Shown piece by piece: positions 43,221 to 49,278 of a stretch of 64,000 nt of DNA. The stretch is from Saprospiraceae bacterium. GTDB lineage: Bacteria > Bacteroidota > Bacteroidia > Chitinophagales > Saprospiraceae. Both the position numbers and the translations under genes were made by a program. Every line of letters starts with the position of its first letter. Within the stretch, counting starts at the first letter, position 1. The notes under the pieces were generated by a model. It did not search any database. It had not been told where the DNA came from and saw only the letters and a list, made by a program, of their open reading frames with translations. The stretch spans positions 310,001 through 374,000 of the forward strand of contig JAHDCU010000005.1 of assembly GCA_020629715.1 (NCBI GenBank), read 5' to 3'.

Positions 43221-44429
43221 TTACTCTTTACCATTCACATAATCTTGCAGATAGCTAAAATTAGCAGTCAACTCACCATGTTGTGTAATCGTTGCTCGAT
43301 CGATGATTCCTTTCCCTCCTTTGATGAGGTCCTCAGCGACATGCTCTAAGAACATCGTGCCAAATGCAGAAGAAGCATCTCTTGGTAGTTCGTTAGGTAA
43401 GTTGTCAATGGTTGTCATATCAATAATATCTTGACCATGTGCATCTGTCATTTTTCCAGTTTGTGGATCGTATCCGAAAATAGGATCAGCGATCGTACTT
43501 GCTTTTAAAGTACTCGGAATAGATGCGTCGGGTGCAATATCACAGGTAACATCAGAGATCACTTTGATTTTAAAATCTGAATCTTGCATCTGCTCTTTCG
43601 TAAAAAAGGCAGGTGCTTTGGTATCCCAGTAGATACCATTAATCATGATATCGCTTACGGGTAGAAAATGATCGAAATCAGATTCATATACTTCAGGATT
43701 TTGATAGAAGTCCTCAAGTTTATCGAATGTCTTACCATCCTTTCGCTTGACGTAATAAAAGCAATTAAGCTGTGTGAAGACAGGGTAATCATACTGATTG
43801 AGAACATAATCGAGTGGGGCGACTTGTTCAATGCCCATGTCACGAAGTACCATGGCAGCACCATTGGATACACGGCCTGTTCCTGTCAATACGATCTTGA
43901 TCGGGTCTAGTTTCCAGCCTTGATACTGAGCTTTGGCAGCTTCATAATCTTTGAAACTATTCATTCTTGGTAGATCAAACTTTGGATTCCGTTGATTCCA
44001 CGTATAGATAGCATTGTGAGCACCGACCATGCCCGCAAACTTACCGAATGCTATCAGACGTTGTTTTTGTTCATTAGTGATGGTTTCGTAGTCTGTAAGC
44101 TGTATGTTTTTAGATAATATGGCTCTGAGTAGACCGCGATTATATTCTTGCTTTTTGATGGTATGCGAAAAGAAAAAGTAATGTTTATCAGATACTAAGG
44201 TATCAATGGGTACTTCTTTTACTCCTAATAACACGTCACAGTCATTAACAGATTCCACGATAGCGATACCTTCATCTTTATACTCTTGATCACTAAAACA
44301 TCGTGTATCACTAGATTGTACTACGATGTGGATATCAAATTCATTTTTGAGTTGAGCACATTGCTTTGGACTCAGAGGTACTCGAGTATCTGGCGGCGTC
44401 TTTAATTCTTTGATGATACCTATTTTCAT
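43221..44429 (-). CDS. NAD(P)-dependent saccharopine/alanine dehydrogenase-like oxidoreductase
   Basis: A 402-residue protein of the alanine dehydrogenase/pyridine-nucleotide transhydrogenase superfamily. The N-terminal substrate domain opens MKIGIIKELKTPPDTRVPLS and includes VLLGVKEVP and YFFFSHTIKKQEYNRGLLRA. The nucleotide-binding Rossmann part has IKIVLTGTGRVSNGAAMVLR (G-x-G-x-x-x-G). ISDVTCDIAPDASIPSTLKA ... FGYDP resembles lysine-forming saccharopine dehydrogenases more than alanine dehydrogenases. Likely role: interconversion of saccharopine with lysine and 2-oxoglutarate, or a related amino-acid reaction. The substrate is inferred only. Followed on the same strand by the RluA gene region. 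Confidence 0.75.
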   Translation of the reverse strand: MKIGIIKELKTPPDTRVPLSPKQCAQLKNEFDIHIVVQSSDTRCFSDQEYKDEGIAIVESVNDCDVLLGVKEVPIDTLVSDKHYFFFSHTIKKQEYNRGLLRAILSKNIQLTDYETITNEQKQRLIAFGKFAGMVGAHNAIYTWNQRNPKFDLPRMNSFKDYEAAKAQYQGWKLDPIKIVLTGTGRVSNGAAMVLRDMGIEQVAPLDYVLNQYDYPVFTQLNCFYYVKRKDGKTFDKLEDFYQNPEVYESDFDHFLPVSDIMINGIYWDTKAPAFFTKEQMQDSDFKIKVISDVTCDIAPDASIPSTLKASTIADPIFGYDPQTGKMTDAHGQDIIDMTTIDNLPNELPRDASSAFGTMFLEHVAEDLIKGGKGIIDRATITQHGELTANFSYLQDYVNGKE

Positions 44430-44490: not shown

Positions 44491-45219
44491 TTAACCGTAT
44501 GCTTTTTCTAATTGATAGATTAGGGCTTTTAAATCCTTAGGCAATTCAGCAAGCCAATGAAGGCGTTCCCTTGTTGTTGGGTGATCTATCGCAAGTTGAT
44601 ATGAATGCAAACTATGCCTTTTTACTAAAGGTCGTTCTTCAGTATCTCTATCGAAACGAATACGTTTTTTACTAAATTCAGATAGCTTGATTTGATCTCG
44701 CTTACTATATAAAGCATCTACAGCGAGTGGCAATCCTATAGCGCTTAAATGAACTCTGATCTGATGGGTTCTACCCGTAAGTAGTGTTACATCAAGCAGT
44801 GCATACTGCCCATATTGTTTGACTAATTGATATTTAGTAATACTGGCTTTACCCTTTTTGGCAGTGGTCATCTTTCCCTTTTTGGAAGATTCTACTATAG
44901 GTAAATCTATGGTATCTCCTTCAACATTCGGATATCCTTTAACGATGGCTTTATATTGTTTAGTTACGGTATGGTCTTCAAATTGCTTGCTGAGGTTTTT
45001 ATGAGCCGTTTCATGTTTGGCCAAGATCATGACGCCACTTGTATCACGATCTAGACGATGCACCATAAAGATCTCACCATACTCTCGTTTATAATATCCC
45101 ATGACATTAGGCAAGTCGCGATATCGGTCTGGAATAGTCAGTAGCTCAGCAGGTTTGTTGATCACGATGATGTCATCGTCATCATGCAGGACTTCAATCT
45201 TTTGGAGTAAACTTTTCAT
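44491..45219 (-). CDS. RluA-family pseudouridine synthase
   Basis: A 242-residue RNA pseudouridine synthase converting specific uridines in rRNA or tRNA. The catalytic motif is HRLDRDTSGV (Asp57 in HRLD). Other family signatures are VINKPAELLTIP, ILAKHETAHKNLSKQFEDHT, LLTGRTHQIRVHLSAIGLPL and RHSLHSYQLAI. No N-terminal S4 domain is present, as in RluA itself. The exact target nucleotide cannot be told. It is followed by no clear terminator; a 7-bp dyad (TATTCAG/CTGAATA) lies at 44461-44486. Confidence 0.92.
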   Translation of the reverse strand: MKSLLQKIEVLHDDDDIIVINKPAELLTIPDRYRDLPNVMGYYKREYGEIFMVHRLDRDTSGVMILAKHETAHKNLSKQFEDHTVTKQYKAIVKGYPNVEGDTIDLPIVESSKKGKMTTAKKGKASITKYQLVKQYGQYALLDVTLLTGRTHQIRVHLSAIGLPLAVDALYSKRDQIKLSEFSKKRIRFDRDTEERPLVKRHSLHSYQLAIDHPTTRERLHWLAELPKDLKALIYQLEKAYG

Positions 45220-45274
45220 GTATGTTGATGAATAGTAATTTGAGATTTAACGAAGCTTGGGAACATAACTTTTA

Positions 45275-46093
45275 TCACTTGATACTATTGATAGTCATTA
45301 GCAAAAAATCTAGAGCATTTGAATAGTTAAGGGTCTCATACTCTAAACCTAGTTTTTTGATATTGTTATAATAATCAGCTCTATGCTCATAGTAGTTTTT
45401 TTCTAGACCCGTAGCATGAGCTAAGTCTCCTAATTTATCAAGTAAAAACCACTTTTCTAGAAGCCTACCCATTCTGCCATTACCATCCTGAAATGGATGT
45501 ATTTTTACAAAAGTCAAATGTATCATAGATGCATAATAAAAACTCTCAGACACATCCATTTCTGTTTCAAAGAGCATTGATGTATCCACTATGAACTGGT
45601 CATATTCATCAGATAGTCTGTATTGGTCGCAGGCTACGTATTCTATTTTATCCTCCTCTCCAAGTACATACATAGGGTTATTTCTCAGCTTACCTCGTTG
45701 ATGTTCGGGTAATAAATTAGTTGATAATATGGCATGTGCTTGTTTTAGGCCGTCTTTAGTAAATTTCTGATTTTGTATGTATTCGTAAGCCTTGAAGAGG
45801 TCATTAGATCGCTTCGTATAGTCAGGTTCGTACGGGACTTTTAAAAATTTATATTTAAAAAAGGAATCATAATCTATTTCTTCACCTTCAATTTTTGAAG
45901 AATAAACAGAGGATACCGAATTATAAAAATCAAAATAATCAACCGGTAGTTCTTCTTGCCTTTTTAAATCTAAAGAACTCAACGGATTGGAATGAATCTG
46001 CTCTTTGAAAAAAGACAACAGTCCTTGATATATGATTTTTGTTTTTATGAGTTCTTTGATTTTGTGACGATTTAGCAAATTACCAATCGCCAA
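45275..46093 (-). CDS. Fic-family AMP-transferase (class II)
   Basis: A 272-residue Fic protein. The active-site loop HPFQDGNGRMGR (199-210) is complete, so AMPylation or related nucleotidyl transfer is possible. The N-terminal inhibitory helix carries SSKIEG (Glu69), the class II autoinhibition motif. No start ATG exists: the frame begins with TTG 46093, overlapping the RibF-GT2 gene by 14 bp, and a second TTG at 46078 is an alternative just after that gene's stop. No antitoxin-like gene is adjacent. The overlap suggests expression from the ribF transcript. Target protein unknown. Confidence 0.88.
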   Translation of the reverse strand: MAIGNLLNRHKIKELIKTKIIYQGLLSFFKEQIHSNPLSSLDLKRQEELPVDYFDFYNSVSSVYSSKIEGEEIDYDSFFKYKFLKVPYEPDYTKRSNDLFKAYEYIQNQKFTKDGLKQAHAILSTNLLPEHQRGKLRNNPMYVLGEEDKIEYVACDQYRLSDEYDQFIVDTSMLFETEMDVSESFYYASMIHLTFVKIHPFQDGNGRMGRLLEKWFLLDKLGDLAHATGLEKNYYEHRADYYNNIKKLGLEYETLNYSNALDFLLMTINSIK

Positions 46094-48062
46094 GTTCTTG
46101 ATAGCTCTTTCTTCCCTTCACAAAATATTGATAGACAATTGACTTGTTGTAAAAAGAAGGGTTTTTACCCTTGATACCTCTGGCTTTTAAGCTTTCTTTC
46201 AATTGTCGTCTTTTACCAATAACATAAGGTAGTCTTTTATAAACACCAAAATGAGCACGGATAACTGCTAAGCAATTTTGCCATTTCCCATCCAAGATCA
46301 TTTTTAATCCAGCGATGCCATCAAGGATAAGGCGTGATATAAACTTTAAAATCCTGAAACCACTCATATCATTTTTGAGTAACATCATCAGGTTATTTCT
46401 AAAATTCAGATAGGTCTTTTTAGGATTTTCATAATCCAATGTGCCGCCACCTAAATGAAATACTACAGATTGTGGAATATATCTGATTGTGTGACCATTT
46501 AGCCGCATTCTCCAACAAAGATCTATTTCTTCTTGATGCGCAAAAAACTTTCTATCGAATCCACCTGCATCCAAGAATATCTGCTTTCTTACTACCATCG
46601 CAGCTCCTGAGGCCCAATGAATGTCTGATGCTTCATCATGCTGACCATGATCCTCTTCAATATGATCGAAGATCCGCCCTCGACAAAATGGATAGGCTAG
46701 ATAGTCTAAAAAACCACCAGCAGCACCTGCATATTCGAATGATTGAGCATCCTCTAAGGATAAAATCTTGGCTTGACAAGCACCAATATTATGATCATTA
46801 TTCATGGCTTTAAGGATAGGGTCTATCCAGTTTGGCTCAACTTTGACATCAGAGTTGAGTATAGCTATAAGTGGCTCTTTTATAAACTGGATTCCTTTAT
46901 TATAACCTTCCGCAAACGCATAATTAGTCTGCAATTTGATCAACTCTACCTCTGGGTGGTATTCTTGGATATAATCTACAGAATCATCCGTTGAGCCATT
47001 ATCGATGACATAAATTTTAAACTTCTCTTGACTGCTAAATGATACAGAGGCCAAGTAAGATTGCAGATGCTCACTTCCATTATAGTTTAAAATGGCGATT
47101 GCAACCTTACAATCTTCTACTTTTGTTTTGTAGCGATTGAGTAGGTGTATAACATCAGCCTTATCCTGCGTAAGTTGTTTTTTGAGTTCGTCTAGATGAT
47201 CAAATTTTTCATTAGCTCTGATGTATGCCACAATCTCTACTCGGAGCTGATCATTATAGATGATCTGATTGAAATCAAAAATATTAACTTCTACAGACAG
47301 CTCTAATCCATCATTAAGACTAGGACGATTACCGATATGCATCATGCCATCATATTGAAAATCATCATGGATTACTCGTACAGCGTATACTCCTTGTTTA
47401 GGAATGAGTTTCTTTTCTTCATTGAGTTTGAGATTTGCTGTAGGAAAACCCAATGAAGTGCCTATTTCTTTTCCATGAATGACTTTTCCAGTCAATGCAT
47501 AGGTATGATTGAGTAGATTATTGGCAATTAAAATTTCACCTTGAAGGAGCGATGTTCTAATTTGAGTAGAACTGATGGTGATATCTTGCAACTGTTGTTG
47601 TTCGATCTCAACTAATTTGAAACTGCCTTTAGCTTCATAGGTTTTGAGTAAATGAATATCCCCAGCCCGATTAAGTCCGAATTTATGATCGTATCCAATG
47701 ACAATGTATGATGGATCGAAGTTGCCAATGATAAATTTCTCGACATATTCTTGAGGTGATTGTCTTGAAAATTCAAAGGAAAAAGGCACTACCACTACAT
47801 TGTCTACTCCTTGTTCTTCTAATAGTTTCAGTTTTTCATCAATATCAGATAAGAGCCTAAGAGTTTTATCTTTTGGATAAATAATAGACCTCGGATGTGG
47901 ATCAAATGTGATGATAATAGATTCGCCACGAATCTCGCTAGCCAGTTGTTTGACTTGCTTAGCAATCTGTTGGTGAGCTCGATGCACCCCATCAAAAGAT
48001 CCAATCGTGATTACTGATCTTTTAAATTTTGGAAGGTCGTTTATATCTCGAAATATTCTCAT
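46080..48062 (-). CDS. ribF: Fusion: FAD synthetase/riboflavin kinase (RibF) with GT2 glycosyltransferase
   Basis: A 660-residue fusion. Residues 1-312 are a complete RibF. The FMN adenylyltransferase half has ITIGSFDGVHRAHQQ (18-32), IITFDPHPRS and ISSTQIRTSL. The riboflavin kinase half has GKVIHGKEIGTSLGFPTANL (192-211) and MHIGNRPS. Residues 318-660 are a family 2 glycosyltransferase beginning VAIAILNYNGSEHLQSYLAS, with YVIDNGSTDDSVDYI, ILNSDVKVEPNW, and KFFAHQEEIDLCWRMRLNGH. The join (NRYKTKVEDCKVAIAILNYN) contains no Met or stop, so the halves are one reading frame. RibF makes FMN and FAD; the transferase half probably builds surface glycans. Fic follows with a 14-bp overlap. Confidence 0.9.
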   Translation of the reverse strand: MRIFRDINDLPKFKRSVITIGSFDGVHRAHQQIAKQVKQLASEIRGESIIITFDPHPRSIIYPKDKTLRLLSDIDEKLKLLEEQGVDNVVVVPFSFEFSRQSPQEYVEKFIIGNFDPSYIVIGYDHKFGLNRAGDIHLLKTYEAKGSFKLVEIEQQQLQDITISSTQIRTSLLQGEILIANNLLNHTYALTGKVIHGKEIGTSLGFPTANLKLNEEKKLIPKQGVYAVRVIHDDFQYDGMMHIGNRPSLNDGLELSVEVNIFDFNQIIYNDQLRVEIVAYIRANEKFDHLDELKKQLTQDKADVIHLLNRYKTKVEDCKVAIAILNYNGSEHLQSYLASVSFSSQEKFKIYVIDNGSTDDSVDYIQEYHPEVELIKLQTNYAFAEGYNKGIQFIKEPLIAILNSDVKVEPNWIDPILKAMNNDHNIGACQAKILSLEDAQSFEYAGAAGGFLDYLAYPFCRGRIFDHIEEDHGQHDEASDIHWASGAAMVVRKQIFLDAGGFDRKFFAHQEEIDLCWRMRLNGHTIRYIPQSVVFHLGGGTLDYENPKKTYLNFRNNLMMLLKNDMSGFRILKFISRLILDGIAGLKMILDGKWQNCLAVIRAHFGVYKRLPYVIGKRRQLKESLKARGIKGKNPSFYNKSIVYQYFVKGRKSYQELGDW

Positions 48063-48177: not shown

Positions 48178-49278
48178 ATGAATATAGATAACAACACGAT
48201 TGTCTCTGCTCTTAGACGAGTACGTGACCCCAAAACAGGCCTAGATGTCATTTCTCAAAAGATGATTTCTAATCTCAAAATAGATGCAAAGAATGTTTCT
48301 TTTACTCTCAAGGTATCTGCTAAAGATCCCGAGGTAAAGTCAACACTCAATTTTGCTTGTATCAAGGCTATCAATGAAGAGTACCCCGATGCACAGGTAC
48401 ATGTTCATATGGAGCAAGAAGCTCCCACGGGTAGTGCCGGAGCTAAAGGAAGGGCATTGCCACAAATCAAAAATATCATAGCCGTTGCCTCAGGAAAGGG
48501 AGGAGTAGGGAAATCTACAGTGACTACCAACTTGGCGATTGCCCTTCGGGACAAAGGTGCTAAAGTAGGTATTATGGATGCGGACCTCTATGGTCCAAGT
48601 ATTCCTACTATGATGGGGACCACTGCTCAACGACCTCAAGTGAAAAAGCTCTATGGTCAAAATAAAATATTGCCGATAGAGTCACATGGCATACACATGA
48701 TATCGATAGGAAATATTGTGGAACCAGAACAAGCAGTGGTACTTCGAGGTCCTCGTCTTGGCGGCATCATCCGGCAGTTTATCAATGAATGTCTCTGGCC
48801 AGAGCTTGACTATTTACTGATTGATCTTCCTCCAGGGACTGGTGATATCCAATTGACATTGGTACAAGCGATACCGATTACAGGTGCGGTAATGGTGACC
48901 ACTCCTCAAGAAGTCAGTGTAATCGATGCCGTAAAGGCCATGAATATGTTTATGTTACCCAATGTAAACGTCCCGATTCTTGGTGTGGTAGAAAATATGG
49001 CATGGTTTACTCCGGCAGAATTACCAGATAACAAGTATCATATTTTCGGATCAGGTGGAGGTATGAGCTTGGCAAGAAAGGCAAATTCGATGTTGCTCGG
49101 ACAACTGCCTTTGATACAAGGAGTACGAGAGGCAGGTGATCGAGGAACGCCTGCAATTTTAGATAATAGTAATCATGCACAGAGTTATATTTCTGATATT
49201 TCTGACAATCTCATCAGACAAGTCAATATCCGCAATGAGGCTTTGGCACCCACTGAAGTTGTAAAAATCGTCAATTGA
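48178..49278 (+). CDS. Mrp/NBP35-type Fe-S cluster carrier ATPase
   Basis: A 366-residue P-loop protein that carries or inserts Fe-S clusters. The N-terminal MIP18/DUF59 domain spans about 1-80 (SALRRVRDPKTGLDVISQKM). The deviant Walker A AVASGKGGVGKST lies at 102-114, followed by VGIMDADLYGPSIPTMMG, LLIDLPPGTGDIQLTL, and TPQEVSVIDAVKAMNMF. At the usual CPxC cluster-binding position the sequence reads VENMAWFTPAELPDNKYHIF, with no cysteines. First gene of a probable operon with the NifU-like gene (25-bp gap), pyrF and others. Confidence 0.93.
   Translation: MNIDNNTIVSALRRVRDPKTGLDVISQKMISNLKIDAKNVSFTLKVSAKDPEVKSTLNFACIKAINEEYPDAQVHVHMEQEAPTGSAGAKGRALPQIKNIIAVASGKGGVGKSTVTTNLAIALRDKGAKVGIMDADLYGPSIPTMMGTTAQRPQVKKLYGQNKILPIESHGIHMISIGNIVEPEQAVVLRGPRLGGIIRQFINECLWPELDYLLIDLPPGTGDIQLTLVQAIPITGAVMVTTPQEVSVIDAVKAMNMFMLPNVNVPILGVVENMAWFTPAELPDNKYHIFGSGGGMSLARKANSMLLGQLPLIQGVREAGDRGTPAILDNSNHAQSYISDISDNLIRQVNIRNEALAPTEVVKIVN

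Follow-up and report, generated by a model that had tools for sequence, protein, structure and literature searches.

A FAD synthetase gene fused in frame to a family 2 glycosyltransferase in most sampled Saprospiraceae

FAD synthetases of type I (RibF), such as those of Corynebacterium ammoniagenes (2x0k) and Thermotoga maritima (1mrz), share both modules, the fold and the key motifs with the N-terminal half of the protein described here. A normal RibF ends where this protein continues into a glycosyltransferase. In higher plants, the FAD synthetase is reported to be joined to a FAD pyrophosphatase that has become inactive (PMC9678776). On the one hand, both the plant enzyme and the present protein join a FAD synthetase to a second enzyme domain. 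On the other hand, the plant partner is there a flavin-hydrolysing domain by descent, whereas the present partner is a glycosyltransferase without a known flavin role.

For the C-terminal half, the nearest counterparts are stand-alone family 2 glycosyltransferases (GT2) of Bacteroidota from Psychroflexus (L002) and Cyclobacteriaceae (L003), which are about 46% identical to it over the GT2 half. These are independent genes with their own Met that adjoin GWxTD, LpxL, YbaB or HolA genes, in contrast to the fused GT2. Polypeptide GalNAc-transferases and GlfT2 share the GT-A fold with this half (Z of about 20-24) at about 11-22% sequence identity, a common fold that is uninformative on the substrate. 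We found no paper on a RibF-GT2 fusion in a search that ran outside subscription journals and domain-architecture databases, where an automatic entry may exist.

The fused gene and the integrity of its parts

The window analyzed here is a stretch of 64,000 nucleotides from the genome of a Saprospiraceae bacterium. The fused gene and its parts lie in it as follows:

46080..48062, minus strand: fused ribF-GT2 gene, a single open frame of 660 amino acids plus stop
47565..48023, minus strand: FMN adenylyltransferase (FAD synthetase) domain, residues 14-166, Pfam PF06574
47148..47513, minus strand: riboflavin kinase domain, residues 184-305, Pfam PF01687
47109..47147, minus strand: linker or hinge, residues 306-318, with no in-frame ATG, GTG or TTG
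46083..47108, minus strand: family 2 glycosyltransferase of GT-A fold, residues 319-660, assigned by Pfam PF00535 and structural matches

The open frame begins with ATG at 48062 and ends with a TAA stop at 46080-46082. A preliminary description of this DNA had proposed a single in-frame fusion of RibF and GT2 with no stop or Met at the join, and the 660-codon frame bears this out; the join reads NRYKTKVEDCKVAIAILNYN, identical to the sequence quoted at that time. The gene is confirmed to encode in one frame both a complete bifunctional RibF, which extends to about residue 312, and a complete GT2. In related genomes, the two halves occur as separate orthologous genes, and the present gene joins them, as in a Rosetta-stone fusion. 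In the genome from which the window comes, which is 99% complete, no second RibF match was found, and no other GT2 match exceeds 32% identity. Fused proteins of this kind may carry the annotation of RibF only, hiding the glycosyltransferase.

Domain searches placed FAD_syn at residues 14-166 (E 1e-44, 152 bits against a cut-off of 27) and Flavokinase at residues 184-305 (E 6e-39, 134 bits against a cut-off of 19.6), and the ribF model TIGR00083 gave 247 bits, above its cut-off of 184. Together with the motifs GSFDGVHRAH and ISSTQIR of the adenylyltransferase and GFPTAN and E258 of the kinase, these matches identify the N-terminal half, as judged from its sequence, as a predicted type I FAD synthetase. 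The RibF motifs had been called complete in the preliminary description. This holds for G21, D24, G25, H27 and H30, which are all present, but GSFDGVHRAH contains an unusual Ala where the consensus of the fused family has Gly.

The C-terminal half contains Glycos_transf_2 at residues 322-434 (E 1e-18, 68 bits against a cut-off of 23) and the motifs DNGSTDDS, NSDV and EEIDLCW. It has the domain, the GT-A fold, the DxD-like metal motif and the acidic catalytic residue of a family 2 glycosyltransferase. A more specific name could not be assigned: all of the named equivalogs (MftF, HpsN, EpsD, PgaC and rhamnosyltransferase) scored below the NCBIfam cut-off, the best being MftF with 79.5 against 280 bits, and comparison with PDB sequences returned distant matches only.

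Both halves appear to be maintained. An alignment of 62 fused proteins shows no variation at the catalytic residues of the three modules, namely G21, D24, G25, H27, H30, S164, S165 and R169 in the adenylyltransferase module, G197, T208, N210 and E258 in the kinase module, and D354, N355, N403, D405, E511, E512 and D514 in the GT2 half. The dN/dS ratio estimated between the window and its sister species is low, at about 0.13 for the kinase part and about 0.10 for the GT2 part. In structural comparison, residues 1-315 matched the C. ammoniagenes FAD synthetase 2x0k with Z 33.3 over 308 residues at 32% identity, and residues 316 to about 650 matched GT-A enzyme structures with Z of about 19-24. 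An AlphaFold model built from the 62-row alignment (mean pLDDT 88.3, pTM 0.66) shows two intact, well-folded predicted domains joined by a loose hinge; confidence is lowest at residues 160-162 and at the hinge residues 313-315, where the hinge pLDDT is below 50.

Distribution and path of the fusion

We found the same fusion in most of 298 Saprospiraceae genomes, among them some that are assembled into one or a few contigs. In about 220 of the 298, the best match has an E-value beyond that of any single half, single halves stopping near E 1e-113; this count is approximate, and a few rows have internal stops. Half-length matches only were obtained from about 50 genomes, of which 30 were looked at individually. 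Most of these 30 have adjacent separate genes, two (G056 and G076) have the genes apart, and the loci of three (G167, G140 and G173) are cut by contig ends. About 23 further genomes gave weak matches only, many of them being fragmented assemblies. Across the deep family that keeps the fusion, the proteins are 41-55% identical to that of the window, and the sister species (L001, the same as G085) has a single full-length fused frame that is 94% identical. The fusion is both genuine and old, and most of the Saprospiraceae sampled have retained it, which answers a check suggested in the preliminary description, namely whether relatives keep it.

Outside Saprospiraceae, no fusion was found in about 870 distinct genomes, which cover 17 other families of the order as well as the class and the phylum. 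Both halves are normally present there as separate genes, mostly with a single strong match per genome. Long open-frame values at L157 and L202-L209 had raised the possibility of GT2 fusions to other genes outside the family; all were checked and found to be separate genes.

The split loci within the family show what may have preceded the fusion. In about 25 sampled Saprospiraceae genomes, ribF and GT2 are adjacent, and their stop and start codons usually overlap or nearly touch. Of the 22 split loci with a placeable start, in which alone the spacing was measured, 12 have the GT2 start at 0 nt or less from the ribF stop, many at -4 or -1 nt; in 8 the distance is 1-50 nt, and 2 have a wider gap. 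Such an overlapping or near-touching arrangement is that described for translationally coupled pairs (PMC10666635).

A maximum-likelihood tree was built from both halves, with 94 rows and 650 columns. In it, unfused Saprospiraceae are basal and the fused proteins are nested; support is weak at many deep nodes, with 58 at the root split. Parsimony on a quick tree gave 5 state changes. Several independent fusions are nevertheless not required, since a tree that groups all fused rows fits equally well or better: a single clade of all 62 fused rows had a p-AU of 0.535 and a log-likelihood 2.57 above that of the free quick tree. The tree, with its weak deep support, puts split loci in basal positions, and the AU test does not reject one fused clade, so the simplest history would run from genes apart to genes adjacent and then to a single fusion. 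Fusion between neighboring genes is a known process. Together with its living apart and adjacent stages, this joining of an essential FMN- and FAD-making enzyme to an unrelated core glycosyltransferase offers a natural series for asking whether operon neighbors fuse by drift or for function.

Independent or coupled action of the two halves

We consider that two housekeeping enzymes have probably been tethered by a staged fusion and act independently of each other. GT2 would have come to lie directly behind ribF in ancestors of the Saprospiraceae, the stop and start codons of the pair would then have become coupled, and the genes would have been joined when ribF lost its stop while the frame was kept. 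A single polypeptide would carry three catalytic modules, namely an FMN adenylyltransferase, a riboflavin kinase and a family 2 glycosyltransferase of GT-A fold; its two halves are presumably both active and would work independently on a flexible hinge. The RibF half would supply the FMN and FAD of the cell, and the GT2 half may glycosylate an envelope glycolipid at the inner membrane. Such a fusion would fix a 1:1 ratio and the co-expression of both enzymes. It may be kept mainly because its reversal is hard, a split needing a new stop and a usable new start at once. A stop-codon loss that became fixed had been one of the two explanations offered at the outset, and it is supported by fixation in most of the family and an origin from an adjacent pair, a single origin not being rejected.

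The analysis shows directly that the frame is open, that its domains are intact, how the fusion is distributed and that the order runs from apart to adjacent to fused. The retention across many genera could also reflect selection for a functional link. In such a case, selection would have acted on a functional coupling of flavin synthesis with glycan assembly, for example with the GT2 half holding the FAD synthetase at the membrane near flavin-using envelope enzymes, or with the flavin status controlling the glycosyltransferase. The preservation of the fusion over a deep family, at the protein identities given above, speaks for such coupling. The use of gene fusion for inferring functional association and the frequent occurrence of overlapping gene pairs as subunits of one complex, as reported in PMC2248599 and PMC10666635, also favor it. 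Measured in the 62 fused proteins between residue 300 and the GT2 motif, the linker further keeps a narrow length of 19-30 amino acids, with a median of 22, but its sequence is variable and not conserved. There is also no confident interface or arrangement between the predicted domains in the AlphaFold model, at a pTM of 0.66 in an output that comes without an inter-domain error map. Moreover, some Saprospiraceae are unfused, two of them with the genes apart. To our knowledge, flavin synthesis and glycan assembly share no metabolite, which we count against the coupling.

The gene surroundings outside the family also argue against it. There, GT2 is a core gene of Bacteroidota, so far uncharacterized, that is about 40-53% identical to the window GT2 half among the rows listed. 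In none of 73 loci outside Saprospiraceae does ribF lie beside GT2; ribF itself can be located behind truB elsewhere in the order. The neighbors of GT2 are instead lipid A, envelope or housekeeping genes and not flavin genes. A GWxTD-domain gene is the upstream same-strand neighbor in 14 of the 73 loci, and a HolA together with an HsdR-N-like gene is near GT2 in 12. An LpxL-type acyltransferase gene lies upstream on the same strand within three genes in 9 loci, and WbqC-like, YbaB and LptE genes occur nearby in 8, 4 and 1, respectively. From gene context, the LpxL, LptE and WbqC-like genes, which occur in a minority of lineages and were not observed at the other loci, suggest a role of GT2 on an envelope glycolipid.

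With the variable linker, the lack of a confident interface and the separate genes in relatives, nothing was found in support of the functional flavin-glycan link that had been offered as the other explanation, and we regard selection for such coupling as unlikely. The more specific proposal that the GT2 half places FAD synthesis at the site of envelope-glycan assembly, coupling flavin supply to surface glycans, is doubtful as well. If true, a functional link would join flavin supply to envelope synthesis; we know of no bacterium in which flavin supply and surface glycans are coupled.

It is also rather improbable that the fusion is genetic only, with one transcript yielding two proteins by internal translation initiation or by proteolysis at the hinge. 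The hinge is predicted to be disordered in the AlphaFold model, which would favor such a process, and a start-like codon occurs in the linker of 30 of the 62 fused genes, an ATG specifically in 8. However, the linkers of 32 of the 62, the window gene among them, contain no ATG, GTG or TTG, so that an internal start within the window linker is ruled out, and no conserved cleavage motif was seen.

Nothing was found in favor of a sequencing or assembly artefact, or of a recent stop loss in one strain, and both can be dismissed. The sister MAG (L001/L013) has the same open frame, as do fused sequences of other genera, some of them from near-complete assemblies. Across the join, where a hidden stop or frameshift at about 47110 had been a concern, the frame is uninterrupted in 62 fused sequences, each from a separate genome.

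Gene neighborhoods and minor observations

Two neighbors recur in the gene-order table of Saprospiraceae loci:

44491..45219, minus strand: RluA-type pseudouridine synthase, Pfam PF00849, the recurrent downstream neighbor at fused and split loci
48178..49278, plus strand: Mrp/NUBPL-type iron-sulfur carrier ATPase, Pfam PF10609, the recurrent divergent neighbor

Between the fusion gene and rluA, the window has a Fic/DOC family gene (45275-46093, minus strand) that overlaps the end of the fusion gene by 14 bases and has no counterpart at the corresponding place in the sister species L001. Farther on, a 402-aa protein is encoded at 43221-44429 on the minus strand. It has an alanine dehydrogenase/PNT N-terminal domain, and its C-terminal part gave no Pfam match at the threshold used.

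A block of WbqC-like, GWxTD, LpxL-type acyltransferase and GT2 genes recurs, whole or in part, in several families of Bacteroidota:

L145, 3148-7300: WbqC-like/GWxTD/LpxL/GT2 block, with relatives in L149, L163, L176, L213, L214 and L221

Our literature search, which ran outside subscription journals, found no paper on GWxTD together with a glycosyltransferase.

The DNA identity between the window and L001 rises from about 71-83% to 95-100% across 44750-47450 and 48351-48650. These high-identity stretches cover the kinase-GT2-RluA region and a small part of mrp. Relative to L001, synonymous change is saturated in residues 1-170 but near zero in the linker. Judging from these identities, the pattern looks like recent interspecies homologous recombination with a breakpoint inside the fusion gene.
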